Below are positions 20,772 to 60,969 of a stretch of 64,000 bases of DNA, piece after piece; positions within the stretch are counted from its first letter, which is position 1; each line of letters starts with the position of its first letter. The notes under the pieces are model-generated. The model saw nothing but the letters and a program-made list of their open reading frames with translations, made no database searches and was not told the origin of the DNA. A program made the position numbers and the translations under genes. Source of the DNA: a bacterium (lineage in GTDB: Bacteria > Elusimicrobiota > Elusimicrobia > UBA1565 > UBA9628); the NCBI GenBank assembly GCA_021822495.1, contig JAKAQO010000004.1:62001-126000 (forward strand), written 5' to 3'.

Positions 20772-21785
20772 CTAAAATTTAGTGGTCAAAGTAAATTGAT
20801 TAACAGTTCCCAAGGCGCCCATGGGAACAAAAGCGTAATCCACTCCCAAACCATATCCAAAAGCGGCGGAAGTGTAAAATCCAAGCCCCAAGCTGATGCC
20901 GCTAACGGCGTTAAGGTTGATGGCCGGCGAACTCGGGGTCGTTATCGCGGTATAGTTATCGGCTTCAAAATATCCGGCCCGAAAAGCCAATTGCCCTATT
21001 TCCAAATATTCCTCGGGAACAGTGAATTGAGCTCCCACTCCCGGACGAGGAATGTCTCCAGCGAATTGATGAACTTCAAAGCTCAACTTAAAAAAATCAT
21101 TCGGAATAATCGCAAAACCCGCTCGCGCGGTCGAACCGACGATGTATTGGCTGGCGCCAAAATTTTGATAGGAAGCGCCAAGACTCAACCAATCATTGGG
21201 TTTGACGATAATCCCGGCATCTCCAACGAGACTGTCCGAGATAGCTCCATTGTAGTCCTGATGGACCACGCGCAAGGTTCCTCCTAAAAAAATGCGCTCA
21301 TACCAAAAGGAACGGGCCACCGACACAGCCCCGTATCCGTTATTGACCTGAACGTTAAAATTAGAAAGAGGAACTCCGTTTTGATCCCGCACATCAAAAT
21401 TACTGTCCGACATATAGGAACCGCTAAAGCCAATAACGGTTTGCCCAATAGGCTGGGCATACGCCATATAGACGGGAGCCTGAACGCCTTGAATATAATT
21501 AAGGTACGAATAAGAAAATTCACGCTCATCGGTCATGGCAAGTCCCGCCGGATTCCAGGTGATGGCATCCACCCCTGAAGCCAAGGCGACAAAGGATTGC
21601 CCCAAGGCCATGGCCTGCGCGGACCCCTGCGAAATATCCAGAAAGGCCGCGCCTCCGGTTCCCGCGCCCGCGCTAATAGCCCATGCCCGGCCTGAAATAG
21701 CCAAAAAAATCAGGCAAAAAAAGGGGACAGTCCCCTTTTTCGCGATTTCTGAACTAAAAGGGGACTGTCCCCTTTTTTTATTCAT
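20772..21785 (-). CDS. PorV/PorQ-type outer-membrane beta-barrel protein
   Basis: A 337-residue exported barrel of the UPF0164/PorV group. The first mature segment GGAAFLDISQGSAQAMALGQ and the motif DAITWNPAGLAMTDEREFS are diagnostic, and the chain ends in Phe like many outer-membrane barrels. The n-region of the signal peptide (residues 2-23) is encoded by a pair of GGGGAC(A/T)GTCCCC palindromes. The ATG overlaps the stop of the giant FlgD-repeat gene (ATGA), so the barrel may anchor or export that protein. Role inferred from pairing. Confidence 0.82.
   Translation of the reverse strand: MNKKRGQSPFSSEIAKKGTVPFFCLIFLAISGRAWAISAGAGTGGAAFLDISQGSAQAMALGQSFVALASGVDAITWNPAGLAMTDEREFSYSYLNYIQGVQAPVYMAYAQPIGQTVIGFSGSYMSDSNFDVRDQNGVPLSNFNVQVNNGYGAVSVARSFWYERIFLGGTLRVVHQDYNGAISDSLVGDAGIIVKPNDWLSLGASYQNFGASQYIVGSTARAGFAIIPNDFFKLSFEVHQFAGDIPRPGVGAQFTVPEEYLEIGQLAFRAGYFEADNYTAITTPSSPAINLNAVSGISLGLGFYTSAAFGYGLGVDYAFVPMGALGTVNQFTLTTKF
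21716..21779. repeat. Paired palindromic repeat, copy pair 1
   Basis: Two imperfectly mirrored elements, A-tract GGGGAC-A-GTCCCC T-tract (21716-21740) and A-tract GGGGAC-T-GTCCCC T-tract (21756-21779), are separated by 15 bases. The central base is opposite, so they face each other. They lie inside the first codons of the PorV-type gene and keep its frame. The same unit recurs near 25.98 and 26.39 kb. The layout recalls REP/BIME elements moved by RAYT (REP-associated tyrosine) transposases, none of which is in the window. Confidence 0.85.
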
Positions 21786-24700: not shown

Positions 24701-26047
24701 CCCACTGGCAAAAGTCCCTTGACTGAGGCTAAGGCTTCCTGTTCCACTCAACAAAAGCCCATTTGCAGACCCTATACAATTACTAGTACTAGTACAAGAA
24801 AGCACTCCTCCAATTTCCGCCCCAGAAACGCTTGTTGATTGGGCTGAGAAAGCAACACCTGTCACCCCTGTCGAGATAATACTCCCGTCATAGGTCCCCC
24901 CAGAAATATAAGTAGTCCCACTACTACTTGAACTTAGATATAAATTAAAACTTACAGAATCACCAGGAGCCAAATAACCGCTACTTGAAGTACTGGAATT
25001 GAGAACCATAGAACCGCCGCTAATTTGGCCGGTCCCAGGTACCGCAGAAACAGGTTGTTTGAGAGGGCAATTTTGGAAATCGGCATCATTAGTAGATCCA
25101 GAGGGATAGGCTTGGACATTGGAGAGTTGAATATTTCCGGTCAAGGATTGAGTTTCATTGGTCGTCACCGTCGCCCGAAAACCAAATTGACCATTGGTTT
25201 TCCCAAAAACCCCTTGGAGATTAATGGAACCGTCCCAGGGAACGCAATAAGGCCCCAAATCCGGGCACCCTGGTTCCCCGCTAATTCCACTTATACATCC
25301 TTGAAACCCGTCAGGAGGAATATATCCAACATTATTAATAAAAAAAGTTCTCAAAGGCGGGGTCGAAGCAGGGTCCAGGGGATTAGAACCATTGGCGTAC
25401 TGAAACACCTCGAATTCCAGGCTGTCAATGGCCATGGGCGCCAGCGGAACGCCGCTTCCGGGCAAAAGCGCTTCGCTTAAATCGTAGCCAATAGAGGCGC
25501 AGAGATAAATCTCATTATTGCAGATGTTCGAGGCCTCATCAGACGGCCACGGAATGAGGGGAATTGACGGGGGAGGGCCACTCGTTTGCGTGGTACCGGA
25601 CATATAACTTTTATCGGCTAGATTTGTGCATTGCGCCGCGCCATACCCCACGCCAGGAGCCCCCGGCTGCCCCGCCTGATCAAACTCAATATGAGGGTCA
25701 TTGGAGATATTTCCAAACCCTGTGTAATAATCTGGGTTGATCGTTGGAGCCCCCGCATAAGTGCCACAAGAGGGAGGCGGGGTGCCAACAATACCGCTAC
25801 AGAGATCCGTTGGAGAAATGGGAATCGGGGGACAAATAAAGTTTGGAACCCCGCCCACGGAATTTTGGACGATGCAGTTTTGATTAACCTGCTGGGTAAA
25901 AATCGCGTCAATAAAAATCTGCTGGGCAAAGGAGAGTTTGCTCCAGAACAACAAGGACGCCGCTAAAATAAAAAGGGGACAGTCCCTTTTTTTCAGAGAA
26001 GGGGACTGTCCCCTTTTTTCACGCGGATGCGGTATTGGAATGCTCAT
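21782..26047 (-). CDS. Giant secreted protein with FlgD-like Ig repeats
   Basis: 1421 residues, signal peptide with hydrophobic core about 27-41. After an N-terminal globular region and a Ser/Gly/Thr-rich stretch (about 330-500) come six repeats of the FlgD Ig type, each ending in a version of WDGxDxxGxxxxxGxY: WDGRYDNG, WDGRDSSG, WDGTDDNG, WPGINSDG, WDGRDNYG, WDGTDLSF. A seventh, C-terminal FlgD-like domain starts at YPNPA and holds VWNKDNEAGRPVAKGIYYVV. It is probably a surface adhesin or exported structural protein. The stop overlaps the PorV gene. The Ser/Gly region has a more AT-rich, repetitive base pattern than the rest. Confidence 0.8.
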   Translation of the reverse strand: MSIPIPHPREKRGQSPSLKKRDCPLFILAASLLFWSKLSFAQQIFIDAIFTQQVNQNCIVQNSVGGVPNFICPPIPISPTDLCSGIVGTPPPSCGTYAGAPTINPDYYTGFGNISNDPHIEFDQAGQPGAPGVGYGAAQCTNLADKSYMSGTTQTSGPPPSIPLIPWPSDEASNICNNEIYLCASIGYDLSEALLPGSGVPLAPMAIDSLEFEVFQYANGSNPLDPASTPPLRTFFINNVGYIPPDGFQGCISGISGEPGCPDLGPYCVPWDGSINLQGVFGKTNGQFGFRATVTTNETQSLTGNIQLSNVQAYPSGSTNDADFQNCPLKQPVSAVPGTGQISGGSMVLNSSTSSSGYLAPGDSVSFNLYLSSSSSGTTYISGGTYDGSIISTGVTGVAFSAQSTSVSGAEIGGVLSCTSTSNCIGSANGLLLSGTGSLSLSQGTFASGTGVAGAIISGTINFSVASGGGTANVSPSNFQYESAGSFTAGCNVLQQPITVNVVDVHVVRSSPTLVGVLTPVAAEPYNLTYRLSEDATMYIDIEHISATNSTGTIVRHLVNGLPRVGEGYPGGTLTNGDAWDGRYDNGDLAPPGNYLAYLQAQNADQYGLDISAPYTYPMSIDPLQITDIAVTPLEGGSTSLAVIGYTLTEAATTFLDIYPPGVQFCSPVVPQGSSQEVVPLSSVNNPVLDISGVNQAISPPKQFYPYMGPCPTSGTIVPNVSPIAHIVQAQPSRTPVIDWWDGRDSSGNLLPDGNYVYVLYGELASQNGYPFNGNANDSRIWTSVAKNGFIPIVRGLVGISQITPTSTVVGSSPPVAGINPFDFTYTLTRDADVKVDIFNEANSSAVVRHLVLGEARSASIPNTEIWDGTDDNGYYVSSGTYLVQLEAWDPAFPSFVSTTTAIFPVDMFRTTNLSVSPLLSGTTATAFINYEESNAMWTGINIYQPGTIIHNVNTSWPPCGQVVQNTPCNDVVASNGVPETPFYQIYGMRSGRLLVSDNWPGINSDGIMVPDGDYPFTLIAQATVPVEGGSIYSTDRIVGFIPVSRGIIGVPIFNVQPTIAKTYYSSQTVELDPFTINFELTRPSSVTINVINDNNPPQVIRNLVFGQSYDGGVPVNAVWDGRDNYGNFPPPNFYTIIMTAQDVASENSLLSLSTSAATISYFPIQIYDLAVSPINLQNQTARIFYQVSEPMKVAILVYRPNTQFPNSNINESYCPQIGSPSPPAYTTNGGIGSLVKVLVSNQPPRQPVETDWDGTDLSFTKVPDGDYTFTVIGSTDDTAIDTITGQLTPGDICELSIDQYIENLPVDRNGSLNPQADFDQNTYAYPNPAYGPTVTFSVWVPFQGDVFMRIYTMAGELVYEHDFGNVPPAYDSPSPLTYVWNKDNEAGRPVAKGIYYVVFQAQETYGNKNFAQTVKKVLIP
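25971..26019. repeat. Paired palindromic repeat, copy pair 2
   Basis: Elements at 25971-25993 (central A, one C lost from the right arm) and 25998-26019 (central T) lie only 4 bases apart. They are read as codons about 10-26 of the giant FlgD-repeat protein, giving KRGQSPSLKKRDCPLF just before its signal-peptide core. Like pair 1 they face each other. Confidence 0.85.
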
Positions 26048-48516: not shown

Positions 48517-48846
48517 ATGAGAATATGGGATTTGCCGCCGAAGGTATTATGCCGCAATCATCTCCTGGGAGAACACCGGGAATTGCACGCAATCTGGACG
48601 GTCTTAACTGAAAATAAAAAAGGGTATTCTCTTCATCCGGAAACCCTGCGCTGGAAAGGCCGCCTTAGAGCCTTGTTTCTACGCCACGAGCGATTGGTCC
48701 AGGAAATGAATCGGCGCGAATACCGGCATCAAAGCCCGCTTGATAAAAATCTTGCAAAAGGAAGCGCCGTCCAAAAGCAATACGTTGACATTCCGGCTAA
48801 GCAAAAAGAAATCTTAAGAAAGAAAGGATGCCTTTGCGCCGTTTAA
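48517..48846 (+). CDS. Pyrimidine-dimer DNA glycosylase-like protein (endonuclease V/Pyr_excise family)
   Basis: A 109-residue protein beginning MRIWDLPPKVLCRNHLLGEH and continuing RELHAIW, with HPETLRWKGRLRALFLRHE. This matches the T4 endonuclease V-like family that nicks UV-damaged DNA. The LLGEHRELHAIW helix and the Arg/His-rich region agree with the family; activity itself is inferred. An AAGG ribosome site lies 8 bases before ATG. The 3' end overlaps the convergent rnhA by 33 bases. Confidence 0.8.
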   Translation: MRIWDLPPKVLCRNHLLGEHRELHAIWTVLTENKKGYSLHPETLRWKGRLRALFLRHERLVQEMNRREYRHQSPLDKNLAKGSAVQKQYVDIPAKQKEILRKKGCLCAV

Positions 48847-49371
48847 ATTAAGATGAAACTCCTCCAAAGTCAGCGCTTTTCCCTTGGAAAAAGCCACGGC
48901 AATTTCATCGGCCCGGGTATTTCCAAATAGGCCTGAATGCCCTGGAATATAACTCCAGGATAATCGTTTTTCAAAAGAACTCATGAGAGCGTCCAACGAT
49001 TCCCACAAATCACGGTTCAAAACGGAAGAACCTTGCGCCGTCTTCCAACCTTTTCTTTTCCAATTTTTAATCCAAGACTCGGCGCCGCCCAGAAGATACT
49101 TGGAGTCAGTCAAAATCTGAATCGAACCCTGAGGAAGTTTTTGAAGGATTCTCAAGGCTTCAATAGCGGCTCGAATCTCCATCCGGTTATTAGTCGTCTG
49201 TGGCTCAAAACCGCCAATTTCGCCGCAAACCGTGTCTCCGACCGTGATAACGGCAGCCCAACCTCCGGGACCAGGGTTTCCGGAACAGGCTCCGTCGGTA
49301 TAAACCCGAAAGGAAACCGAAGCGTTAATGGGCGTAAATGAAGTAGGGCTCGGCGTCATCAGTCCAGTCAT
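48814..49371 (-). CDS. rnhA: Ribonuclease HI
   Basis: Degrades RNA in RNA-DNA hybrids. The four catalytic acids are present: Asp in YTDGACSGNPGPGGW, Glu in NNRMEIRAAIEAL, Asp in ILTDSKYL, and Asp in TRADEIA, with the His of GHSG. 185 residues, with a 20-residue N-terminal extension and a 25-residue tail beyond E. coli RNase HI (155). It overlaps the DUF4384 gene by 47 bases, so the start could be one of two ATGs (49371, 49359) or a non-standard codon nearer the core. Confidence 0.93.
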   Translation of the reverse strand: MTGLMTPSPTSFTPINASVSFRVYTDGACSGNPGPGGWAAVITVGDTVCGEIGGFEPQTTNNRMEIRAAIEALRILQKLPQGSIQILTDSKYLLGGAESWIKNWKRKGWKTAQGSSVLNRDLWESLDALMSSFEKRLSWSYIPGHSGLFGNTRADEIAVAFSKGKALTLEEFHLNLNGAKASFLS

Positions 49372-50302
49372 AGTTTGAAGCGTTCAAGCGTTTAAGAAGC
49401 GAGAAATAATCGTCTGTCTTTCGCACTTGATAGAGGGTTGAGGGCAAGGGTTCTTTAGAGGCGATGACGGAGATGGTTTCAGCCGACATCGTTTCTCCCG
49501 CGGGAATTTCAGCGACCAAGGAGAGTCCTTCTTCAGCCGGATTATTTGGATCCGGATAAATCAACGGATGAGTCGGCCTTGCCTTAAGGCGAGAAACGTA
49601 TTCATTGGGGACAATCAGGGAAAGAGAACCATCCATGGCCTGATCATATAAGTAGAGATAACAGCGCGTGCTGACAGAAACCTGAACTTCTTCCGAGGCG
49701 CCGTTAACGAGATGTTGTTTCGAGAGATTGAGCCGCGCCCAGAAATTTCGATCGGAATGATGCGGGAAAGGCTTGACGCAATCCGAAACCTCGGCCTGAT
49801 AGCGGCAGTATGGGCACTGGCTAGACGAAACATAGCCGTTTGAGCCAACTTTCTCATCGATGATTCTTCCTTGTCTCATGGTCTGAACCAGGCTTTGAAT
49901 CATGCTGTCTCGTCCTTGAAGTCCCGATTGCTGAAAAACTAGATCCCGCGAACGAATGCGCACCCCCAAGACTTTTTCCAAGGCCATTCGACGGGCTTCG
50001 GAAATCGCCATCGCTTTCGCCTGCTCTGGACTCATGGAACTGGTCACATCCGCGACCCCCAAGGACTGAACCCAGGTGCATTTCATTTTTGCGCTGCGGC
50101 CCGTGACCTTCGCATTAAGAGAGCTGTCGACAAATTGATTTTCACCTTGGCTCGAAGAAACCGTCTGGGAAGAACCCGGAACGCTTAGTTCTGATTCCGC
50201 TTTCGCCGCATCGGCTTTAATCGCGGCATAATTTGGGGTCTTTGCGACATGGCACCCTGAAACCAAGACTAAGACAGAGGCAAAACACAAAAATTGTTTC
50301 AT
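49325..50302 (-). CDS. DUF4384-type lipoprotein
   Basis: 325 residues with a lipoprotein signal (VLVLVSGC, Cys17). The middle has an Ala-rich helix (MSPEQAKAMAISEARRMALE) resembling LPP20/FlgT-like proteins. A two-cysteine cluster CPYCRYQ follows. The C-terminal DUF4384-like domain contains VQVSVSTRCYLYLYDQAMDG and SLIVPNEYVSRLKA. DUF4384 is often found next to caspase-like and serine/threonine-kinase domains. It is the third lipoprotein of the caspase module at the end of the motor operon. Confidence 0.75.
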   Translation of the reverse strand: MKQFLCFASVLVLVSGCHVAKTPNYAAIKADAAKAESELSVPGSSQTVSSSQGENQFVDSSLNAKVTGRSAKMKCTWVQSLGVADVTSSMSPEQAKAMAISEARRMALEKVLGVRIRSRDLVFQQSGLQGRDSMIQSLVQTMRQGRIIDEKVGSNGYVSSSQCPYCRYQAEVSDCVKPFPHHSDRNFWARLNLSKQHLVNGASEEVQVSVSTRCYLYLYDQAMDGSLSLIVPNEYVSRLKARPTHPLIYPDPNNPAEEGLSLVAEIPAGETMSAETISVIASKEPLPSTLYQVRKTDDYFSLLKRLNASNYDWTDDAEPYFIYAH

Positions 50303-50318
50303 CTTTTTAAAAAGCCTC

Positions 50319-50477
50319 TCACTGCATCGGGTGATTTAAAATCGCCTGATTGAGATCTTTTTGAGCGTTTTGAGAATCCGAATGAACCGTATGGTAATTG
50401 CCAGTTTTAGGAGCGCATCCAAAAATAAAAACGCTTACGCTTGCGGCTCCCACCAATGTCAGAATACATTTTTTCAT
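50319..50477 (-). CDS. Small lipoprotein (52 aa) of the caspase module
   Basis: A short gene from ATG 50477 to TGA 50319. The product has a signal with lipobox FIFGC (Cys21) and a polar mature part of 32 residues (APKTGNYHTVHSDSQNAQKD). Its ATG overlaps the caspase stop as ATGA and the DUF4384 gene starts 16 bases after it, so it is translationally coupled. It may be an anchor or inhibitor peptide for its neighbours; no family is recognised. Confidence 0.75.
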   Translation of the reverse strand: MKKCILTLVGAASVSVFIFGCAPKTGNYHTVHSDSQNAQKDLNQAILNHPMQ

Positions 50478-52063
50478 TTAAAAACGCCTCCCAAAGTAAT
50501 CAGAGTATTTTTTCCCATTAACTGCGGAGTCTGAACTCTTCCCTCGCTGCGCGCCACATCCTCGACTCTTGGCTCTATATAATGATAAATATCGTAAAGC
50601 TTGCCAACCCCTTGGGATCGGTTCAGCCCTTTTAAGAGATAATACGTCAAGATTCCATGTCCTTCCTCGGGAATCACGCCTTCAATCTGTTCCGGCCCGG
50701 CGGCGGCAAGCCCCGCGATTTTTCCCAAGGAGGCCGGGCCCATATCCACTTTTTCAACCAGCGGACGCAACCCCTTGGCCATCACCGAACGCGGCCCTTC
50801 GCCTGAAAAGCAGGAATCCAAAACCACAATCAAGCGCCCAGCCCGAATTCTATTGAGCTGGCGATATAAATGCGAAATCGAATAGCCAGTCGCGCTTAAG
50901 AAAGAAGGGTCGCCATCCCAAGGAACTAGGTATGCCTGATGGGACACGGGGTCATTGGCTCCGTGTCCGGAGAAATAGAAAAATATTTTTGACTTTTTGG
51001 AGGCGTGATCAGGAAGCCACCCAGCCACATATTTATCAATCCCGCTTTTGGTCGCTTCGCTATCGGTTAAAAAGACGATATTCTGATTGGGAAAGCCCAG
51101 AGCCAAGAGATGCCGCCGCATTGCCCGAGCGTCGTTGGCGGCAAATTCTGCGTCCGCCACATTTTCATACTTTTGGATGCCGACAACAACCGCGTAATTG
51201 TCTTTGGCGGCGCCCAAGGCATAGGTTGGAGAATCCACATCCGATTTAAGAGAAGAGGCAGAAGAAGTCGGAGGAGATTTTGTGGATTCTCCTGCATTCT
51301 GAGAATTAAAAATATTCTTGGGAATCGGCGTCTGGGCGGCCTCATGCCCCGTTAATTGTGATTGATAAAGGCCTAGGGCTTTTGAATGAATTAATGAGGA
51401 TTCCAAGCGTCCTAAAAGATCGCTTAACGCGACTAAAAAACCGCGCTCGAAACATTGGGTCTGAGAAGCGGGAAAGCCCTCTTCATGAGCAAGGCTGACG
51501 TAGCGTGAACAATCTTTTGCGCCCATGGATTCAGAAGAATGAACCTTGATTTTCTCAATTTGTTTTCCTTCTGGAGTTATAAAGGCGATGGCGAGACTCT
51601 GTTGAATCTCATTTTGCTCATATCGCCCTTCCAAAATAGGCACCTTCACATTCCAGTCAATCTCGGCTTGGACGTCCGCGCCTTCTAGTCCTAGAGAAGC
51701 CGCTTCAAAATTATCCTTAAATAGTTCTTGAATCTGGGAAAACGCCGTCTTCGGCGCCATTTCGCCGCTTAAGGACCCTTCATGTTTGGACAACCACTTC
51801 AGAATCTGGGCGATATAAATTTCCGAATTCCGGGAATTTTGCGTAGGAAGCATCGTCAGCCTCAAATGCGGAAAAGGCGCGCGTCCCACGGGAGCTTTCC
51901 AAGAGAAGCCGTTAAGCTCAGAGCGGCTAAATAAAAGCGGAGCCTGAAAAGCCACTGGAAGAGGCTGACTTGGCAAAGGAACCGGAACATCCTTGGGAAG
52001 AGTCGCACAGGCGGAGAAAAAACTAAGCGCTAAAATCGCCGCTACTTCATTGAGCTCAGCCAT
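50474..52063 (-). CDS. Caspase-like (peptidase C14) lipoprotein
   Basis: 529 residues. A short signal with a lipobox-like SFFSAC (Cys19) suggests attachment to the envelope. The N-terminal 270 residues are unassigned. The C-terminal half (about 290-520) is a caspase-fold protease: YAVVVGIQKYENV, the catalytic His in FFYFSGHGAND, and the catalytic Cys in LIVVLDSCFSGEG. GHGILTYYLLKGLNR closes the domain. The His-Cys dyad is intact. It starts 8 bases after motB, so protease and motor genes share a transcript. Bacterial caspases usually cut after Arg/Lys or Asp; target is unknown. Confidence 0.88.
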   Translation of the reverse strand: MAELNEVAAILALSFFSACATLPKDVPVPLPSQPLPVAFQAPLLFSRSELNGFSWKAPVGRAPFPHLRLTMLPTQNSRNSEIYIAQILKWLSKHEGSLSGEMAPKTAFSQIQELFKDNFEAASLGLEGADVQAEIDWNVKVPILEGRYEQNEIQQSLAIAFITPEGKQIEKIKVHSSESMGAKDCSRYVSLAHEEGFPASQTQCFERGFLVALSDLLGRLESSLIHSKALGLYQSQLTGHEAAQTPIPKNIFNSQNAGESTKSPPTSSASSLKSDVDSPTYALGAAKDNYAVVVGIQKYENVADAEFAANDARAMRRHLLALGFPNQNIVFLTDSEATKSGIDKYVAGWLPDHASKKSKIFFYFSGHGANDPVSHQAYLVPWDGDPSFLSATGYSISHLYRQLNRIRAGRLIVVLDSCFSGEGPRSVMAKGLRPLVEKVDMGPASLGKIAGLAAAGPEQIEGVIPEEGHGILTYYLLKGLNRSQGVGKLYDIYHYIEPRVEDVARSEGRVQTPQLMGKNTLITLGGVFK

Positions 52064-52071
52064 AAAATTTA

Positions 52072-52812
52072 TTATAACCCTTTTATATCCGGCGAACTCG
52101 CTTTTTTAACGGGAATAAGAGAATTCGGCTTCCGAACCCCAGAAATTTTGGCTCCAACACTCTTGAGAGGAGAATTGGTTTTTTGTTCCGAGGGAGAAAG
52201 ATTCTTAACCCAGAAAACAACGCGACGGTTCTCGGCCCGACCTTGAGGAGTTTGATTAGAGGCAATCGGGCGATATTGACCGTAGCCTAAAGCGCCTAAA
52301 TGATTAGGCGGAAGGCCGTATTTGTTCTTTAGAAGTCTAACGACCGCGGTAGCTCTGGCCGTTGAAAGTTCCCAGTTGGAATCAAAATACTGGTTTGAAA
52401 TTTTTCTATTATCGGTGTGTCCTTCAACGATAATATCATGATCCACAGCCAATTTTTTCAGGGTGGGAACGAGTTTTGCGATCATCGCATCCATCGCGGG
52501 AGTGGTATCAGCCTCTCCGCTTTTGAAGAAGGAGACGTGACCTTCCTCATTAATCGTGATTTTCAATCCTTCGCGGTCGACTTCAACCCCTCCGCTGATT
52601 TGTTTTGAATTCACCATTTTCTGAACGTTTTCGACCGCCTGTTGAACTTGTTTGTTAAGAGAAGTGGAAAGAGCGTAAAGAATGATAAAAAAACAGGCAA
52701 TCTCGGTCATCAGATCCGCATAGTTGACCAGCCACGGAGGAGCTGGGTGGCCGATCTGCGCGACCTTGGGGTCGCTTTCGTCAATAAAACCCTTCGGAGG
52801 TTTAAGAGGCAT
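52072..52812 (-). CDS. motB: MotB-type stator protein with OmpA peptidoglycan-binding domain
   Basis: 246 residues. PAPPWLVNYADLMTEIACFF opens the single TM and contains the conserved Asp of the ion channel (YADLMT). A plug-like linker follows, then an OmpA/MotB domain (about 95-205) with VEGHTDNRK, SNWELSTARATAVVRLL and GYGQYRPIASN, which holds peptidoglycan. It pairs with MotA to form a proton- or sodium-driven stator. Five bases separate it from motA. Confidence 0.92.
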   Translation of the reverse strand: MPLKPPKGFIDESDPKVAQIGHPAPPWLVNYADLMTEIACFFIILYALSTSLNKQVQQAVENVQKMVNSKQISGGVEVDREGLKITINEEGHVSFFKSGEADTTPAMDAMIAKLVPTLKKLAVDHDIIVEGHTDNRKISNQYFDSNWELSTARATAVVRLLKNKYGLPPNHLGALGYGQYRPIASNQTPQGRAENRRVVFWVKNLSPSEQKTNSPLKSVGAKISGVRKPNSLIPVKKASSPDIKGL

Positions 52813-52817
52813 AAAAT

Positions 52818-53600
52818 TTAAGCCGTTTGCGTTTTAATCGCCCCGCGCTTGGCCGGCTCAAGATAAGCTTTTAAATTGGCCTCCACCACGCTCGGAGTCG
52901 CTCCGCTTTGGAGGAGAAGAACTCCTCGGATGATGATTTCTTTCACCAAAAGCTCTTCCTCTGACCTTCGGCGCAACTTGCCGCCCATAGGGAGGAAGAT
53001 AAGATATCCCGACCCTAAGCCAAAATACGCCGAGGCCAGGGCCACCGCCATTCTCCTTGGAACTTGGGTAACATCCTCGATCGTAGACAACATCAAAATC
53101 ATTCCCAAGACTGTCCCGATAATTCCGAAGGCCGGGGCGTAGGTTCCCATCGCGTTAAAAATTTCCTGTCCCACCTTATGCCTTTCCCGAATAAAACCAA
53201 TTTCCGTCTCCAACATATTGCGGATGAACTCTTGGTCTGCCCCGTCAATAACCAATTGAATCGCTCTTCTCAGAAAATCGTTCTGAATGGCTTTCACATC
53301 GCCCTGGAGGGCCAAGAATCCTTCTTTTTTGGCCTTTTGAGACAAGCTGACGAAGGTCGCGACGATATCGGGCGTATCTTCCGGCGCGGAAAACAAAACT
53401 TTTCTAACGATACGACCAAGCCCCACGACTTGGTTCAACGGATAATTGACGAGAGTCGCGCAGAAAGTGCCTCCCATAACCATCAAAAAGGCTTCCATGT
53501 TAAAGAAAGGCTTAAACCCAACCCATCCTTCCGACAAAAAGATCGTGATGACCGCCAACCCCAAGAAAACCAGTATTCCCAATACCGTCGCTATATCCAT
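52818..53600 (-). CDS. motA: MotA-type stator ion-channel protein
   Basis: 260 residues with four TMs and a cytoplasmic loop between TM2 and TM3 (about 65-160) that touches the rotor. The functionally conserved prolines appear in YAPAFGIIGTVLGMI (TM3) and YLIFLPMGGKLRRR (TM4). The sequence is of the PomA/MotA flagellar type, unlike ExbB/TolQ. A strong AAGGAG ribosome site precedes it and flbD lies 12 bases before. Confidence 0.95.
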   Translation of the reverse strand: MDIATVLGILVFLGLAVITIFLSEGWVGFKPFFNMEAFLMVMGGTFCATLVNYPLNQVVGLGRIVRKVLFSAPEDTPDIVATFVSLSQKAKKEGFLALQGDVKAIQNDFLRRAIQLVIDGADQEFIRNMLETEIGFIRERHKVGQEIFNAMGTYAPAFGIIGTVLGMILMLSTIEDVTQVPRRMAVALASAYFGLGSGYLIFLPMGGKLRRRSEEELLVKEIIIRGVLLLQSGATPSVVEANLKAYLEPAKRGAIKTQTA

Positions 53601-53612
53601 CGATCTCTCTCC

Positions 53613-53843
53613 TTAAGGATTCTGCCTCTCAAAACCCGCAATCGGGTTGACGACTCTGGTGTCCGAATTGACCTTCTTGCGATAGTCAATCACTTTTTGA
53701 ACGACTTCCTCCACATTTTCTTTAATGAGAAAGCGATTGCCCGTCGCAAGACAAACAATCGTTTCTTGTCCGCATTCAAGGCATTCGATTAGTTCCGCGT
53801 TAATAAAGACCTCTTGGCCGTTCAGTTTGTGAACTAAAATCAT
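53613..53843 (-). CDS. flbD: FlbD-family small protein
   Basis: 76 residues. MILVHKLNGQEVFINAELIE followed by CLATGNRFLIKENVEEVVQK matches the short FlbD family, which sits beside motA-motB in many flagellar operons. Role is not established. Its stop lies 12 bases before motA and its start overlaps the coiled-coil gene by 4 bases. Order flbD-motA-motB is an ancestral flagellar arrangement kept here. Confidence 0.9.
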   Translation of the reverse strand: MILVHKLNGQEVFINAELIECLECGQETIVCLATGNRFLIKENVEEVVQKVIDYRKKVNSDTRVVNPIAGFERQNP

Positions 53844-56800
53844 GAATTGCCTTCTTTGTTTTTCGCTAATTTTTTACGCATCTGCTCTTGGATGTTTTCC
53901 ACCTCTTTTCTAACAAGAGAGAGCTGCGCTCCCTGGGCCGAGGAAAGACGCTCCGCTTCTTCCTTTTCTTGCTTCATTTTCAGATAAGACGCCAGAGTTA
54001 TTTCCAAATCCTTTTGTTGTTTTTGAAACTCCTCTTTCAGTCTAGCAATTTCGTTTTCCACCTTTTCACGCTCATCCCGAGATATTTTTTCTCTCTCCGC
54101 ATCAATTTCCTCATCCATCTTTTTCCGCCTAATCCGAATTATCTCCTCCACTTTCCGTTCAACCTCTTGCTTAAATTGAGACTGAAGACGAGTTCTTTCC
54201 CTCTCAAAGAGTTCTTCTGATTTTTTAAGCGCCCGTTCGTCAATTTCTTGTTCCCATTTGTGATGAATGACCCCCAGAGCGGCACGCAAACGCTCTTCTC
54301 TTTTTTCCGAACTTACTTTCTGGGCCTGAGCGGAAGCCAACTGCATTTTAAGATCGCCCATCTGTCTTCCCACATTTTCAACCAACTCCTTGTTCTTTTT
54401 CTCCATTTCAGACAGTTGATTTTCCCGTCTGTCTATCTCGTCTTGATATTCTTTTTCTCTCTCTTGATGATTTTTCTGTTCGGACGCCGCCGCAAGCCTT
54501 AATTTCCCAAGTTCTTCCTCCATTCGCTTTTTAGCGTTTTCCCTTATGTAATTTACAAGAGAAAGGGCCTTAGCTTCCGCTTTTTTCTCAACTTTTTCAT
54601 CCATTTCGGAATCTAATTTCTTTACATAAAGTTGGGTTTCAGCCTCGACCTTCGCGCGCCGATCGCGCAACTCCAATTCAAGCCGCGCCTCGTATTCTTT
54701 AATCATTTCCTCTTTTTCTTTCCTGAGCGCAGATAAATCCGTTTCCAGCTGTTCCTTTTTTAACCGCGCATCTTTCCGGAGTTCATCCATTTGGAGTTTG
54801 AACTCCGACTGGAGACGCGCCCGCTCATTCTCAAACCTAGCCTCCGTCTTCTCCGGCAGCCGAGCGAATTCATTTTTAAGTTTAGACAGCTCATCTGACA
54901 TCCTCACCACGGCCAACTCGCTAGCAGATAGATTTGATTTTAAGAGTGAATTTTCAGAAGACAGTTTGGCCTCTCTTAGAGAACTCTCCGATTGAACAGA
55001 GTATAATTCCGCCTGAAAAGCGGCTTTAAGCCTCTGAATCTTAGTCTCGTATTCAGTCTCAATCTGAAGGACTGGTTTTTTCGCTTGTTCTAGTTCGCTT
55101 TGCAACCGCTGAATTTCGGAGTTAAGCAAAGCCTCTTTATTTTTTAACTGATCCTCTAAATTGAGAATTTGGCCCTGGAACCGCATTCGGACTTCACTCA
55201 AAGCCTTCTCTTTCTCTTGAGTAGCCCTTTCATCAGCCTGACGAAGCTGCGCTCTGAGATGGGAGATTACCTCATTCATTTGCCTTTCTTTTTCTTCTTT
55301 GTCCTTTATGGAAGCCTTCCATTCTTTCTGGAAATTGTCCTGAATATCCTGGATTTCGACTTTCTTCTCCAACCGCAGTCCTTCAAGGCTAGCCGCGTGT
55401 TTTTCCTCGGCTTCTTTTAACGAAGTCTTTAGAAGAGAAATTTGCGTTTCATGAGAAGCTTGAAGGCGCTCAATAGTTTCTTCTTTCTCACGAACGACCG
55501 CCTCGACTTTCAATGAAAGTTCTTTTCTAAGAATTTCCATTTCATCCATCAACCGTCTTTCTTTCTCTTCATGATTCTTTAAGGAGTCTTTCCATTCTTT
55601 CTGAAAACCGTCTTGAAGAGCCTGAATTTCCGTTTTCTTCTCCAGACGTAACTTCTCAAAGCTGGCCGCGTGTTTTTCCTCGGCTTCTTTTAACGAAGTC
55701 TTTAGAAGAGAAATTTGCGTTTCATGAGAAGCTTGAAGGCGCTCAATAGTTTCTTCTTTCTCACGAACGACCGCCTCGACTTTCAATGAAAGTTCTTTTC
55801 TAAGAATTTCCATTTCATCCATCAACCGTCTTTCTTTCTCTTCATGATTCTTTAAGGAGTCTTTCCATTCTTTCTGAAAACCGTCTTGAAGAGCCTGAAT
55901 TTCCGTTTTCTTCTCCAGACGCAACTTCTCAAAGCTGGCCGCGTGTTTTTCCTCGGCTTCTTTTAACGAAGATTTAAGCATCGCGATCTGTTTCTCATAA
56001 GAAGCTTGAAGACGCTCGATGCCTCCGTCTTTCTCGCGGACAATTTCTTTTATCTTTTCGTCTCTCTCGCGAACAACCGCCTCAATTTTCAATGAGAGTT
56101 CTTTTCTCAGAATTTCCATTTCACCCATCAACCGTCTTTCTTTCTCTTCCTGATCTTTGAGAATTCTCCCTAGATTTTCAATTTCCCGTTTGGACACTTC
56201 CCGCGCGAGATTAAGTTCAGATTTAACTTGAGCCAACTCTTTTTCACGCTCAATAAGATTGCCGGTGGAAACGGTTTGTTTACTTTCCAATTCTAAATTT
56301 CTTTTTTCAATTTCCTTAATTTTATCTTCAATCGCTTTTTTCTCGATTACGATCTTTCCGAGCTCGATTTCAGAGACTCTCAGCTTTTCTGCCACCATGC
56401 GCCAGTTGCGCGCCTCCTCCTCCTTGGCGGACAAAGTCTTTTGCCATTGCATCTTTTCTTCCAGCCATCGTCTCTCCATTTCCTGGATGCGGCCGACAAA
56501 CTGGGTTTCAATATCCTTATCCTGGGCCTCGCGCGACTGCATCTGGGATTTCAGAGTCGCAACCCAGGTTTCCCGCTCTTGCGCCAATCGCCCCTCCATT
56601 TCGCGGAGTTTGTTTTCAAGACGCAAACGAGACTCCTCGGTCTCTTGATCTCGCCTCTCTCGCCTAATTTTTTCTTGAAGTTCTTTAAGAGAAGATTCAA
56701 CCTTGGCAGAAGTGACGGCCTCCTGCTGATTTTTAAGCTGGGCCATGAGAACTTTTTCCCGCTCATCTTGAAGTTTCTTTTCCAATTCCGATATTTTTTT

Positions 56801-57082
56801 ATCGATATTGCCTTGTTCCGAATTCGAAGATAGAGCTTGAGCGCTCGGACTAGGCTTGGCTCCTGGTAAAGGCGGAAGGGACGGAAGTCCCGGCAAGGAC
56901 ACGTTTTTAGCGGGAGGTAGCCCGGGAAGGGACGGCAAAGACTTAGAAGGCATCAGCGCATCCGGCGGAAGAAACGGAGGCAACCCAGGAAAAGAAGCGT
57001 CTTTTTGAGCCGCGGAAGGATCCATCGGCGCGCCCGGCAAGGGCGGCGGGAAATTCTTAAAATCTTTATTTTCTTCAGCCAT
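53840..57082 (-). CDS. 1080-residue coiled-coil protein of the motor operon
   Basis: The first 100 residues are Pro-rich (repeated PGLPP/LPSLPG-like groups), followed by almost unbroken coiled coil from about 110 to 1075, rich in Glu, Lys and Leu with heptad spacing. No enzymatic motif or TM is visible, so it is likely cytoplasmic. Residues about 321-604 are three tandem near-identical units (102, 91 and 91 residues), two of them almost identical in DNA. Such a rod could link the FliG-like rotor to another part of the cell, as track or scaffold. A strong GGAGGA ribosome site is present; 8-base overlap with the upstream gene. Confidence 0.8.
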   Translation of the reverse strand: MAEENKDFKNFPPPLPGAPMDPSAAQKDASFPGLPPFLPPDALMPSKSLPSLPGLPPAKNVSLPGLPSLPPLPGAKPSPSAQALSSNSEQGNIDKKISELEKKLQDEREKVLMAQLKNQQEAVTSAKVESSLKELQEKIRRERRDQETEESRLRLENKLREMEGRLAQERETWVATLKSQMQSREAQDKDIETQFVGRIQEMERRWLEEKMQWQKTLSAKEEEARNWRMVAEKLRVSEIELGKIVIEKKAIEDKIKEIEKRNLELESKQTVSTGNLIEREKELAQVKSELNLAREVSKREIENLGRILKDQEEKERRLMGEMEILRKELSLKIEAVVRERDEKIKEIVREKDGGIERLQASYEKQIAMLKSSLKEAEEKHAASFEKLRLEKKTEIQALQDGFQKEWKDSLKNHEEKERRLMDEMEILRKELSLKVEAVVREKEETIERLQASHETQISLLKTSLKEAEEKHAASFEKLRLEKKTEIQALQDGFQKEWKDSLKNHEEKERRLMDEMEILRKELSLKVEAVVREKEETIERLQASHETQISLLKTSLKEAEEKHAASLEGLRLEKKVEIQDIQDNFQKEWKASIKDKEEKERQMNEVISHLRAQLRQADERATQEKEKALSEVRMRFQGQILNLEDQLKNKEALLNSEIQRLQSELEQAKKPVLQIETEYETKIQRLKAAFQAELYSVQSESSLREAKLSSENSLLKSNLSASELAVVRMSDELSKLKNEFARLPEKTEARFENERARLQSEFKLQMDELRKDARLKKEQLETDLSALRKEKEEMIKEYEARLELELRDRRAKVEAETQLYVKKLDSEMDEKVEKKAEAKALSLVNYIRENAKKRMEEELGKLRLAAASEQKNHQEREKEYQDEIDRRENQLSEMEKKNKELVENVGRQMGDLKMQLASAQAQKVSSEKREERLRAALGVIHHKWEQEIDERALKKSEELFERERTRLQSQFKQEVERKVEEIIRIRRKKMDEEIDAEREKISRDEREKVENEIARLKEEFQKQQKDLEITLASYLKMKQEKEEAERLSSAQGAQLSLVRKEVENIQEQMRKKLAKNKEGNS
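55272..56122 (-). repeat. Tandem 273-bp coding repeat in the coiled-coil gene
   Basis: Three units in tandem code for 102, 91 and 91 residues. The landmark GCCGCGTGTTTTTCCTCGGC recurs at 55392, 55665 and 55938, exactly 273 bases apart. 91 residues equal 13 heptads, so each added unit keeps the coil in register. The middle copies are nearly identical in DNA, so the expansion is recent or maintained by recombination. Confidence 0.9.
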
Positions 57083-59123
57083 TGAGGTTTCCTCCTACCT
57101 GTGATTTAAAACTTTCCACCCAGGCTTTCAGTTGCGGGTCCGGGTTGATTTCCAAAACTTTTTCATAATGAGAAAGGGCCGATTGAACATCTCCTTTCTG
57201 GTAAAGCAAGGTTCCCAAATATTGATGGGCCTGCCAAAGAAGGGGATTAAGAGTCAGCGCGGCATCAAAGTAAGAGATGGCCGCATCCATCTGTCCAGCC
57301 TGATACTGCGAAACGGCCGCATCAAAATAAGCCTGGGCCTTGGCCGGATCGGTGGCAGTCGGCGAGACATCCGCCTGAGCTTTTCGGGCGCTTTGAAACC
57401 TTTTCTGGCGTCTTTCCATCGCGCCGAGTTCTTCCTGCATTCCCTCAACCATGTCATAACCCTGTTGTCCTTGTTTGCGAACCGAAATTTTTCCCTCTTT
57501 CTCAAGGGCCTTGATTAGATCCATGACCTTGCTGCGCTCATCTTCAATTTGATTCGGGTTCAACCCTTGAGAGTATTCCATCGTTTCCTTGAGCAAACTA
57601 GCCGCCCCGGTCGACATACTGCTTAAGAATTTATTGAGAACCTCGGGCGGCGCCCCCGTCAAAGCGCGCGCCATCAAATCGGTCTTAAGTTCGCGAACAA
57701 TGGTCTGCATATCGCGATCCGGGAAAGAAGCGATATCCTCAAAGACGAGAATATGTTTCCGTACCGCTTCGTAGACCAAAGGCTTCTCATTTTTTAGATA
57801 GTTCAAAATATTGGCGCGCGTCGCGGAATCAGACTCATCCAGTAAAACAACCAGGCGCTCAATTCCACCGACGACAAAATCCACGTTTTCCTTGACGTCT
57901 CCGTCAATGGCAATCACCTGATCCCGGGTCACTTGCCGAACCGTCAAAGCCTCAAGCGCGACCTTGGCCTGAAGATCCACCGGAAGAGAGGTCAAAAGTT
58001 GCCGCGCCAAATCCGGCTTAAGATAGCTGGCGACAACCGCCACCACCCACGGTTCTTCTTTTCTCAAGATAAACATATACGCCAAACGCTTGATGTTTTC
58101 CTCATTAATATAGGCAAACGGCTCGAATTTTTTCATTTCATCCTCCTCATCCGGCGGCGGGGGCGGCGGCTCATCTGGTTTTCTGGTAAAATTAATGTCC
58201 AGTTTCCCCTCTTGGGTTAAAGCGTCGTCTCCCTCGCCTTCCCCTTCTTCTCCTTCTTTCCCAGTGACGTCATTCATGTTGACATCGGAACTGCGTTTTT
58301 CCAGCATCGCGCGGATATAGGCGCTTAAGAATTTGCGCAACGGCCCAAATAGAAACAGGAGAAGCAAAAGCAAAAGAAAAGCGTAGAGAAGCGGCAAATA
58401 GACGGAGGGTTTTTTTAGATCTTCCTTCCAGTCGTTTTTGATATGGGCAAAAGGAGTCGCTCGAAAGAAAACATTGTCCGGCGCTAAATGATACTCCCCC
58501 ATTGCGTCGACAATGCGGCTTCTGACCATGTCAACCTGATTTTTATCTTTCAATATGTTTTGATCATGGATGACGGTGACGGTCAATTTCTTAAACACCG
58601 GGTCAACCGCATAGGTTTCCTGCTGAACTCCCTTGGACTCTTTCGCGGCTTGGGCGGCGGCGGAAGCTGGAGGCGTTTTCGGCCCGCCCGCGGTAATGGC
58701 GGTCGGTTTTGGGATCCCCGGCATGACGAAATTGGTGTTCATGTTCGCCCCGTCATTGGGGCCTTTTTTTTGATGATATTTCTGCGCTTCTCCCACGCCT
58801 TGCCTGGTTGAGCGTTCGCTTTCAACTTTCACCGACATCTCCACGTCCACAAAAGCGACGGCTTCCCCCGGCCCCAAAATGGGATCCAAAATTTCATCTT
58901 GTATTTTTTTCTCTGACTCCGTTTTGATGCGGTTTTGTTCCTTAAGAAGATCAATATCCGGAGCGACGAGCGGAGCGGCATGAAGGCTCTTGAACGCTCC
59001 AGAGAAAAAAATGAGAAGAACCGCGATTTTTTTCATCGGATTTTTAAAAACAAATCGTCTTGAGGCATTTGACATAAGTGTAGATGCTGGTGATGACATT
59101 TTCAAGTCTTTAAAATGTTTCAT
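57075..59123 (-). CDS. FliF(C-terminal ring domain)-FliG-TPR fusion protein
   Basis: 682 residues combining parts of the flagellar rotor. After a basic N-terminus, TM1 (about 31-50) leads to a periplasmic FliF C-terminal domain: EILDPILGPGEAVAFVDVEM, then KKLTVTVIHDQN and FFRATPF. FliF ring-building motifs 1 and 2 are missing. TM2 (LLYAFLLLLLLLFLFGPLRK) is followed by an acidic/Pro linker and a FliG-like region (about 335-570). There KEEPWVVAVVASYLKPDLAR resembles the EHPQ helix and FEDIASFPDRDMQTIVREL the torque domain; the FliG KRAA segment reads TGAA. Two TPRs end the chain (about 610-675). ATG 59123 lies 3 bases after the previous stop; ATG 59036 would begin directly at a signal-like MKKIAVLLIFFSG. 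Confidence 0.85.
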   Translation of the reverse strand: MKHFKDLKMSSPASTLMSNASRRFVFKNPMKKIAVLLIFFSGAFKSLHAAPLVAPDIDLLKEQNRIKTESEKKIQDEILDPILGPGEAVAFVDVEMSVKVESERSTRQGVGEAQKYHQKKGPNDGANMNTNFVMPGIPKPTAITAGGPKTPPASAAAQAAKESKGVQQETYAVDPVFKKLTVTVIHDQNILKDKNQVDMVRSRIVDAMGEYHLAPDNVFFRATPFAHIKNDWKEDLKKPSVYLPLLYAFLLLLLLLFLFGPLRKFLSAYIRAMLEKRSSDVNMNDVTGKEGEEGEGEGDDALTQEGKLDINFTRKPDEPPPPPPDEEDEMKKFEPFAYINEENIKRLAYMFILRKEEPWVVAVVASYLKPDLARQLLTSLPVDLQAKVALEALTVRQVTRDQVIAIDGDVKENVDFVVGGIERLVVLLDESDSATRANILNYLKNEKPLVYEAVRKHILVFEDIASFPDRDMQTIVRELKTDLMARALTGAPPEVLNKFLSSMSTGAASLLKETMEYSQGLNPNQIEDERSKVMDLIKALEKEGKISVRKQGQQGYDMVEGMQEELGAMERRQKRFQSARKAQADVSPTATDPAKAQAYFDAAVSQYQAGQMDAAISYFDAALTLNPLLWQAHQYLGTLLYQKGDVQSALSHYEKVLEINPDPQLKAWVESFKSQVGGNLNG

Positions 59124-59126
59124 TTT

Positions 59127-60740
59127 TTATTGCGCCTGCATGAACTGGCGAACCTCTTTATTGTGCGGGTCAAGCTCCAAAACCCGCTTCCAAACAGCAA
59201 TCGCTTTTTGCTTTTGATCCATCAGATAAAAAGCGCTACCCAAAATCTCAAGAGCGGTCACGTTATTGGGCTCTAGGTCCAAAACGTCTTGCGCGCGCCG
59301 AATTGCCGCGTCATAGTGCCCCTCATAGACCGACTGCCGGGCGTCATAGACTTTTTGATCGACCCAGGTAAACTGCTCCGGCCCGCCGACTCGGCGCGTC
59401 AGTTCGGTGACATGGGCCGCTTTCTCAACGGCGTTCAGAAGAAGAAGAAGCTTTTCATCCTTCGGATTTTTGTTGTAGGCGTATCTTAAGGCGTTGACCG
59501 ATCCTCTTAAGTCATTTCCATCCACGAACAAAACCGCTCCCTTCCGCAAGAAGGTCTGAAATTCTTCCCCACCGGTCGCTTGCGGAACATGGTCGGTGAC
59601 CGTTTTAAGCCGGTCAATCATCTGCTGAACGCGCCTATTTCCCGGCTGGATATAAAGCGCTTCTTTAAAACGCGCCTGGGCCAGGGTAAAGTTTCCTTCC
59701 TGCAAGGCCTCAAAGGCGGATCTCAAAACCGCTTTAACCTTGGCGTTGGTGTTGGCGGTTTTGCTTTCCCCGAATTTAAACCCTAATGAAATTTTGGTGC
59801 TGCTTCCAAGATTCCCAATCCCTTCCGCCACGTCCACTTGGAAGGTTTGGAAATCAAGGCCAAATCCGAAATCGGTCTCCTGAATTTGTGGAATTCCCAT
59901 CAAACCGAAGCGAAATGCGAACCATTGGGACAAATGATATTCTCCTCCGAAATTAACATCCAAACCCGGAGTTAAAGGCTTATTGAGGTCCATGTCTAAA
60001 ATCAAGCGATCATGAAAAAGTTCGACGGCATTTCCCATTCTGACGATCACCGGATATTGATCGCTGGTCGCGCCCGAGGTCCTTGAAAACGCATTCTGAA
60101 CCCCGAGGCCCAAGTGATAAAACCCAAAAGTCTTAAGCATTCCGATGTTGAGGGCTTGGGTCGTGCTTCCATAGCCGGCCAAGCTGTTTGAAATTTCCTG
60201 GACCGTCGCGCCGAAAGAAGTGGTCTTGGTCAGACTCTTCGCCCAGGAGAAACTAATGGCTTGTTGCGCGCTGGTAAAAGAACCCTGGGAGGTTAGTCCC
60301 GTCAAGGTTCCCTGCTGATTATAGGTCGCGGCCTCATTTTGAAATCCGCCAGCCGAAAGCTTCGTAAACGATCCCGCGAAGGTGCTTCCGCCTTTGAGGG
60401 GTTGAGCATAGGCCAAATAATCCAAACTGGTCTGTTGCGGCAAAGCCCCGTCCATCATGGTCATCTGTTTTCTTTGAAGTTGCGCGAGTCCCGCCGGATT
60501 CCAGTTTCCAGCCGAAGCGTCGTTGGACAAGCCGTAAAAAGCGCCGCCCATGGCCAAGGCTCTAGCGCCCACGCCGTAGAGAAGAAAATTGCCCGGAAGG
60601 CCTCCAATGGCGCTTTGAGCGAGAAGTTGGGAAAAGGCAGGCAGGGAAAGAAAAACAAAAAACCCCGCAGAGAGAATTCTCCCTGCGGCAATACGCGCCC
60701 GTCTATAACAAGACAGGCCTCTCGCCTTAGCTTGGGCCAT
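59127..60740 (-). CDS. PorV-like outer-membrane barrel with C-terminal TPRs
   Basis: 537 residues. A signal-like segment (about 22-38) leads to a PorV/UPF0164-type barrel (about 50-330) with GVGARALAMGGAFYGLSNDA and GNWNPAGLAQLQ. TPRs follow (about 345-380, 405-440, 470-535). It is the first gene after the c-di-GMP riboswitch and could be the outer-membrane part that couples the inner-membrane rotor to the surface. ATG 60740 lies 6 bases after the riboswitch without a separate ribosome site. The terminator hairpin falls within codons 18-30, and no start codon exists between the hairpin and the barrel that would save the signal peptide. Confidence 0.8.
   Translation of the reverse strand: MAQAKARGLSCYRRARIAAGRILSAGFFVFLSLPAFSQLLAQSAIGGLPGNFLLYGVGARALAMGGAFYGLSNDASAGNWNPAGLAQLQRKQMTMMDGALPQQTSLDYLAYAQPLKGGSTFAGSFTKLSAGGFQNEAATYNQQGTLTGLTSQGSFTSAQQAISFSWAKSLTKTTSFGATVQEISNSLAGYGSTTQALNIGMLKTFGFYHLGLGVQNAFSRTSGATSDQYPVIVRMGNAVELFHDRLILDMDLNKPLTPGLDVNFGGEYHLSQWFAFRFGLMGIPQIQETDFGFGLDFQTFQVDVAEGIGNLGSSTKISLGFKFGESKTANTNAKVKAVLRSAFEALQEGNFTLAQARFKEALYIQPGNRRVQQMIDRLKTVTDHVPQATGGEEFQTFLRKGAVLFVDGNDLRGSVNALRYAYNKNPKDEKLLLLLNAVEKAAHVTELTRRVGGPEQFTWVDQKVYDARQSVYEGHYDAAIRRAQDVLDLEPNNVTALEILGSAFYLMDQKQKAIAVWKRVLELDPHNKEVRQFMQAQ
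60651..60688 (-). terminator. Intrinsic terminator inside the first codons of the motor operon
   Basis: On the reverse strand CCGCAGGGAGAA pairs with TTCTCTCTGCGG (60688-60665; one G-T pair) and is followed by GG, six T, G and five T (60664-60651). It stands about 58 bases after the riboswitch, the right place for transcriptional control by the ligand, yet it lies in the coding frame of the PorV-TPR gene (codons about 18-30). Confidence 0.8.
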
Positions 60741-60745
60741 TCATT

Positions 60746-60869
60746 TCGGTAGCCTGACGCTCCTCGAAAGGAGTCACGGCTTTGCGCCCCCGCCTTACGG
60801 CGCGACGTCTTGATCCTAAAAAAAGACCAAGAAGCCGCGCGCCTTTCGGCACGGGTTTGCCTTTATCGC
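60746..60869 (-). promoter_or_regulatory. Cyclic-di-GMP-I (GEMM) riboswitch
   Basis: Read on the reverse strand, the conserved blocks of the GEMM-I aptamer appear in order. GATAAAGGCAAACC covers 60867-60854, GGCGCAAAGCC 60788-60778. A closing helix GACTCC/GGAG-CGTC with loop TTTCGA leads to AGGCTACCGA ending near 60746. The P1b stem CCCGTGCC/GGCGGGGG carries a 45-base extra hairpin (60799-60843) where a short GNRA loop is usual. The aptamer lies between a consensus promoter and a terminator, upstream of motor genes, as expected for a second messenger of motility. Confidence 0.85.
60799..60843 (-). other. Extra hairpin inserted in the riboswitch P1b loop
   Basis: GGCGCG and CGCGCC close a hairpin; an inner helix CTTGGTC/GATCAAG (one G-T pair) is capped by TTTTTTTAG. 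The insertion splits the loop between GAAA and GTAA, the two places where the usual GNRA tetraloop residues could come from. It is unusual compared with the compact aptamers known from Vibrio. Confidence 0.65.
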
Positions 60870-60941
60870 CCGCATGAGAAAAATTCCCGCGGCTTTTTTG
60901 CCCCCTCGTCCGCGGACGCCCATACGGGATGCGTCCTTAGA

Positions 60942-60969
60942 AGTGTAACAGAAATTCAGATTTTGTCAA
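60942..60969 (-). promoter_or_regulatory. Consensus promoter of the riboswitch-controlled motor operon
   Basis: TTGACA (60969-60964), 16-base spacer and TACACT (60947-60942) with an upstream TG giving an extended -10. Transcription should start near 60935, about 195 bases before the first ATG, leaving room for a 5' hairpin (GGACGC...GCGTCC), the riboswitch and the start. The -35 box lies just after the stop codon of the preceding gene. Confidence 0.8.

Follow-up and report, generated by a model that had tools for sequence, protein, structure and literature searches.

In the Agl-Glt gliding machinery of Myxococcus, a stator of the MotAB/TolQR type is linked through periplasmic, outer-membrane and TPR proteins to movement over surfaces, and the machinery is not known to include a FliF/FliG rotor or PorV. 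PorV of Flavobacterium docks on SprA, and motor energy delivered through a periplasmic arm has been proposed to pull PorV and its substrate off the translocon (PMC10994853); the GldL-GldM (GldLM) motor of this bacterium powers secretion as well as gliding (PMC8986121). Among flagellar components, an engineered Vibrio fusion of FliF and FliG (FliFG) forms MS-rings (PMC11481574), and FlbD increases flagellar motor power in Bacillus (PMC9195833). Elusimicrobia have been stated to have no flagellar genes (PMC7031533). Here we analyze a 64,000-nucleotide stretch of contig JAKAQO010000004.1 (the window) from a genome of the phylum Elusimicrobiota (2.2 Mb, 94.7% complete), in which a cyclic di-GMP (c-di-GMP) riboswitch is followed by genes for a PorV-like barrel, a FliF-FliG-TPR fusion, a long coiled coil, FlbD, MotA and MotB. 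The conserved gene set points to an undescribed rotary machine at the cell surface. From sequence and structure models, we read it with moderate confidence as a flagellum-derived, envelope-spanning rotary motor that likely drives gliding or powers SprA-like secretion.

The candidate rotor is encoded at 57075-59123, on the reverse strand like all features of the locus. By sequence and structure prediction, it is a fusion of a signal peptide, a FliF collar, one membrane helix, the middle and C-terminal domains of FliG, and a TPR region. The FliG part is recognized by Pfam (FliG_M and FliG_C, 5.6e-25, followed by TPR) and by a profile match to the FliG structure 1lkv (2.5e-48), and the profile search also matches the FliF-FliG structure 8z4d. 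By sequence, the FliF part lies under the Pfam cut-off (E 0.078); we assign it to FliF because the AlphaFold model of the fusion (mean predicted local distance difference test 71.9) matches, in Foldseek, the FliF RBM3/collar structures 6scn, 6sd1 and 7cg7 in addition to FliG, and because a paralogue in the same genome exceeds the YscJ_FliF_C cut-off. Alignment with Thermotoga FliG shows that the torque helix retains its charged residues, of which R477 and K498 are invariant across the fusion proteins (alignment A2). It also shows EEPW, with an invariant P358-W359, where flagellar FliG has EHPQ, the motif that binds FliM. The altered motif and the retained torque residues together agree with a motor that operates without a flagellum.

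The stator is of the flagellar type. MotA (52818-53600; PF01618, 3.1e-26) finds its best NCBIfam models in MotP, MotA and PomA (about 1e-61 to 1e-63) and conserves the channel prolines P156 and P204, while MotB (52072-52812) combines MotB_plug (PF13677) with a peptidoglycan-binding OmpA domain (PF00691) and keeps the channel aspartate D33 in at least 95% of 76 sequences. Both subunits retain the residues of a working channel. FlbD/SwrD is encoded at 53613-53843 (PF06289, 1.1e-19). The locus shares with the flagellar motor its stator, the middle and C-terminal domains of FliG, the FliF RBM3/collar and FlbD, and the pairing of a MotA-MotB stator with a FliG torque domain is the combination by which we recognized a flagellar motor. 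It departs from that motor in a FliF cut to the collar region, a natural fusion to TPR, a changed FliM-binding motif and a PorV barrel in the operon.

It also departs from it in what is missing. Across the window's genome and 37 relatives, the FlhA export gate (PF00771) was absent from the window's genome and from 36 of the relatives, and neither the FliM/FliN C-ring domain (PF01052) nor the rod/hook domain (PF00460) was found in any of the 38 genomes, whereas four flagellated control genomes gave matches in each of these searches. A complete flagellar gene set elsewhere in the genome, which the initial annotation had named as evidence that would overturn its proposal, was not found; additional FliF/FliG genes occur only in two sister clusters. 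A bare split-flagellum reading was rejected, since FlhA, FliM/FliN and rod/hook are all absent. A flagellin filament would depend on the missing export gate. Together with a widely kept motor gene order, these absences support the proposal from the sequence that a flagellum-derived motor has been put to another use. One relative carries a lone FlhA of 690 aa beside a MotB-like gene (genome G034, contig C59; L211 2889-5881) and has no FliM/FliN or rod match.

The first gene of the operon (59127-60740) encodes a PorV-like outer-membrane barrel with a C-terminal TPR region, hereafter PorV-TPR. It passes the PorV/PorQ family model NF033709 (93.9 bits, cut-off 90), which we used as the mark of a type IX component; in the PDB, its modelled fold comes closest to PorV from the SprA complex (6h3i_F, E 1.5e-11), and its sequence profile matches the same Flavobacterium translocon chain (1.9e-6). 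A SprA homologue of 1916 aa is encoded in the genome (TIGR04189, 2.2e-27, 94.8 bits); it was detected by TIGR04189 and had no match to PF14349 (SprA_N), and phmmer against PDB sequences returned none. Among 199 Elusimicrobiota genomes, a SprA homologue is present in 162, none above the TIGR04189 equivalog cut-off of 200, and it occurs in all 51 genomes with any match to the fusion (Fisher p about 6e-6, kinship uncorrected). Of 38 genomes, 35 have CHU_C type IX sorting domains, 30 of them with matches over the cut-off, and the window's genome has seven matches. GldM gave no match in the 38 genomes, in a search that had no positive control that gave a match.

The locus and its genome thus share with type IX secretion and Bacteroidota gliding a PorV-family barrel, a SprA homologue, CHU_C domains, a giant surface protein and a proton-type stator. 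They differ in using MotAB and FliF/FliG rather than GldLM, in a PorV with its own TPR, in a SprA below the equivalog cut-off, in c-di-GMP riboswitch control and in belonging to the phylum Elusimicrobiota. Given the absence of flagellum-defining parts and the low SprA score, we class the system as neither a flagellum nor a type IX system, although the motor may work like either.

The unit is conserved well beyond the window. All six genes (PorV-TPR, FliFG-TPR, coiled coil, FlbD, MotA and MotB) are present in the same order at 17 of 18 loci of relatives, the remaining one being broken by a contig end, and in most of 80 Elusimicrobiota loci, where the exceptions are mainly contig-end cuts. In distant lineages, PorV-TPR and the fusion remain adjacent, and FlbD and MotAB are nearby in only some. 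PorV-TPR was found in all 43 genomes of the 199-genome sample with a strong fusion match (below 1e-90) and, as a weak match only, in one of the remaining 156; these co-occurrence counts take in about 30 genera, with no correction for kinship. Loss of this order in close relatives had been named beforehand as evidence against the proposal, and relatives that have the genes keep it. Of the ten genes originally grouped together, only the first six are the conserved unit, the other four being a genus-only addition. The main motor has been lost in some members of the window's family and in two families with small genomes (f7 and f12), which we take to be the host-associated, presumably gut-associated, Elusimicrobiaceae and Endomicrobiaceae. 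In a MotA search of genome contigs, every match with a named phylum belonged to Elusimicrobia/Elusimicrobiota, and several were given only as "bacterium". The third gene of the unit (53840-57082) encodes a long coiled coil of 1080 aa with a proline-rich N-terminus that is probably cytoplasmic and whose position is conserved.

Expression of the operon is apparently tied to c-di-GMP. A sigma-70-like promoter (TTGACA-16-TACACT, 60942-60969; 10 of 12 consensus matches) precedes a GEMM-I aptamer (60745-60871; RF01051, 41.8 bits, cut-off 35) that ends 4 nt ahead of the PorV-TPR start codon and has a G at the site that sets its preference for c-di-GMP. A terminator-like hairpin with a T-run (60665-60688; consensus scan, −17.3 kcal/mol) follows as the putative expression platform. 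Consensus scanning, Rfam and domain searches confirmed the promoter, the aptamer and the ten tightly packed genes, which overlap or are separated by at most 16 nt. The domains named in the initial annotation were borne out by Pfam and NCBIfam, and in the case of FliF by AlphaFold/Foldseek and the paralogue. The hairpin it had placed ahead of the genes is likewise present, but within the signal-peptide codons of the first reading frame rather than upstream of it.

This arrangement recurs. GEMM-I lies directly before PorV-TPR in 16 genomes including the window's own (Rfam), in seven of seven distant loci, and by motif in all 51 PorV-TPR leaders, where it ends between −1 and 6 nt ahead of the start codon. 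A hairpin of −10 kcal/mol or stronger with a T-run falls inside the signal-peptide codons in 42 of these 51 leaders, compared with a mean of 10.3 and a maximum of 16 leaders when codons were shuffled synonymously (same peptide, local usage, 60 draws). The start of the coding sequence thus seems to double as a transcription switch. That the hairpin is not conserved, as its sequence variation between genera might suggest, was rejected, since by the synonymous-codon test the hairpin and T-run are structurally conserved. The window's aptamer scores above the Rfam cut-off like other GEMM-I riboswitches; it differs from them in abutting the start codon and in having its terminator-like hairpin within signal-peptide codons, an arrangement unusual in itself. 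The aptamer at locus L117 (3479-3557) falls under the Rfam subfamily model c-di-GMP-I-GGC (RF03167).

Two additional GEMM-I aptamers are present in the window's genome. One precedes the SprA homologue (G000:C4:400741-401049; L168 741-1049), with a classical terminator, GCCGCCCC-AAACA-GGGGGACGGC-TCTTTTTT, between aptamer and gene, an arrangement that recurs throughout the genus and in one more genus. The other precedes genes for HEAT-repeat and giant surface proteins, the latter running for more than 3,800 aa up to the end of the contig; related proteins stand behind GEMM-I in two other genera. The PorV-like nature of the barrel, and the position of the other GEMM-I riboswitches ahead of the SprA homologue and the giant surface protein, bear out and sharpen the connection to the surface proposed in the initial annotation. 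In another genome (G013:C104; L163 4060-4782), a GEMM-I riboswitch has as its neighbour the gene of a periplasmic protein that resembles the FliF collar and lacks FliG.

The window's genome holds two further clusters with PorV-TPR, FliF/FliG, MotA and MotB. The cluster on contig C11 (L032 7566-17265) comprises PorV-TPR, a histidine kinase-FliF/FliG frame, a coiled coil, MotA, MotB, a HEAT protein and a CHASE2-cyclase, and lies downstream of a gene for a 2224-aa giant protein with a FlgD-like C-terminus. Its histidine kinase and FliF/FliG occupy a single frame of 944 aa, possibly a natural fusion; in relatives G001 and G002, the open frames at this place are 841 and 856 aa long. The cluster on contig C15 (L033 3079-16429) comprises response regulators, MotA and MotB, with three histidine kinases, FliF/FliG, PorV-TPR and two proteins with type B (ITPNGDGKND-type) sorting domains on the opposite strand. 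Sister clusters of distant genomes show the same neighbours. As the PorV-type barrel and the rotor occur together in three clusters, their link is independent of any single operon.

For the observed parts, with their order, co-occurrence and shared riboswitch control, we propose a working model. The fusion would form a ring in the inner membrane, which peptidoglycan-anchored MotAB would turn through FliG; the periplasmic FliF collar would hand the force on to the TPR arm of PorV-TPR, whose barrel would move or free surface proteins exported by the SprA-like translocon. We infer surface gliding as the most likely outcome, with power for secretion as the main alternative, and the two could be linked, as they are in Flavobacterium. 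The levels of the motor, of SprA and of the giant surface protein would be set together by c-di-GMP. More tentatively, and at slightly less than an even chance, the locus could represent a third type of power source for bacterial gliding or type IX-like secretion. In this view, a flagellar stator and a FliF-FliG rotor that have shed the C-ring, rod, hook and export components would act directly on an outer-membrane carrier of the PorV type, with motor, translocon and surface adhesin under the joint control of c-di-GMP riboswitches.

Several points weigh against this picture. SprA homologues are also found in 111 of the 148 sampled genomes without the motor, the homologue in the window's genome reaches 94.8 bits where the equivalog model asks for 200, and the SprA riboswitch is seen in just two genera of one family. 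The giant surface proteins extend past the sequence covered, and any C-terminal sorting signals would lie beyond it. Contact between the FliF collar and the TPR of PorV is a guess, and the ring, its rotation and the resulting movement are read from sequence and models of single proteins.

In one alternative, the motor would chiefly energize secretion, as GldL-GldM does, by pulling PorV and cargo off a SprA-like channel without cell movement. We regard this as unlikely but the strongest of the alternatives. It draws on the proposal that energy input in Flavobacterium forces PorV from SprA and extracts the substrate (PMC10994853), on the dual role of GldLM in secretion and gliding (PMC8986121), on the tie of PorV-TPR to the motor, on the c-di-GMP control that SprA and the motor share in the genus, and on the lack of a GldM match in 38 genomes; that search, run without a positive control, leaves room for a GldLM motor. 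SprA homologues persist, however, in lineages without the motor, which means that SprA does not need it, and SprA was rejected as a strict motor partner because its distribution is the wider. The homologue is retained in all genomes of family f7 and in many of f12; in these motor-less families, SprA must run on another energy source or none.

MotAB might instead pull or tether the outer membrane in a Tol-Pal-like manner, while a FliFG ring would serve as a scaffold for a coiled coil that helps to shape or divide the cell; the peptidoglycan-binding OmpA domain of MotB and the 1080-aa coiled coil in the operon would suit such a static or slow device, yet it is improbable given the conserved torque residues of FliG and channel residues of MotA and MotB, the boost that FlbD gives to the Bacillus flagellar motor (PMC9195833), and a patchy presence and c-di-GMP control ill-suited to housekeeping. 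That every motor part is flagellar in origin could also be explained by a degenerate flagellum. A remnant is very improbable, though, given intact open frames, a strict co-occurrence and gene order that hold in many families, the addition of PorV and TPR as new partners, and a genome that carries three such clusters in parallel. Least credible of all is a Zorya-like phage defence motor, which we considered on account of MotB matches to ZorB models (2.4e-19) and a caspase match to a PADLOC model (8.8e-18). MotA has no ZorA or PADLOC match and prefers the flagellar MotA, MotP and PomA models, the core, together with FliFG and PorV, stays constant from lineage to lineage, and the caspase is found in one genus only; a Zorya system was rejected, as PADLOC models found no ZorA-type stator.

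If the rotary reading at the cell surface is correct, a rotor and stator can be separated from the filament and connected to the outer membrane, which would bear on flagellar evolution and supply a second type of motor for type IX-like machines; its six genes would make a compact system for rebuilding. The initial annotation knew of no described system with this set, and we found no matching description in the open literature: no report there joins these parts, whether FliG and MotA with Elusimicrobia, SprA/PorV/type IX with Elusimicrobia, or FliG with PorV and MotA, although subscription journals and preprints lay outside the search and an earlier description is possible. Nor did the open literature yield a motor description for free-living Elusimicrobiota lineages.

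The four genes of the tail are found at this locus solely in the window's own genus. They encode a caspase-domain (C14) lipoprotein with SGHG and DSCFSG motifs (50474-52063; PF00656, 5.8e-13), a 52-aa lipoprotein recognized as an open reading frame (50319-50477), a DUF4384 lipoprotein with weak similarity to FlgT_N (49325-50302; PF14326, 1.4e-8) and an RNase HI (48814-49371; PF00075, 5.9e-39), the last not kept at the locus in other genera and probably a passenger. The caspase-lipoprotein module, initially taken as part of the system, is thus genus-restricted at this place, and the caspase was rejected as a core component. Elsewhere in the window (20772-26047), a Tad/Flp pilus gene cluster has as neighbours the genes of a PorV-like barrel and of a protein of 1421 aa whose C-terminus is FlgD-like, possibly a separate surface-protein pair.

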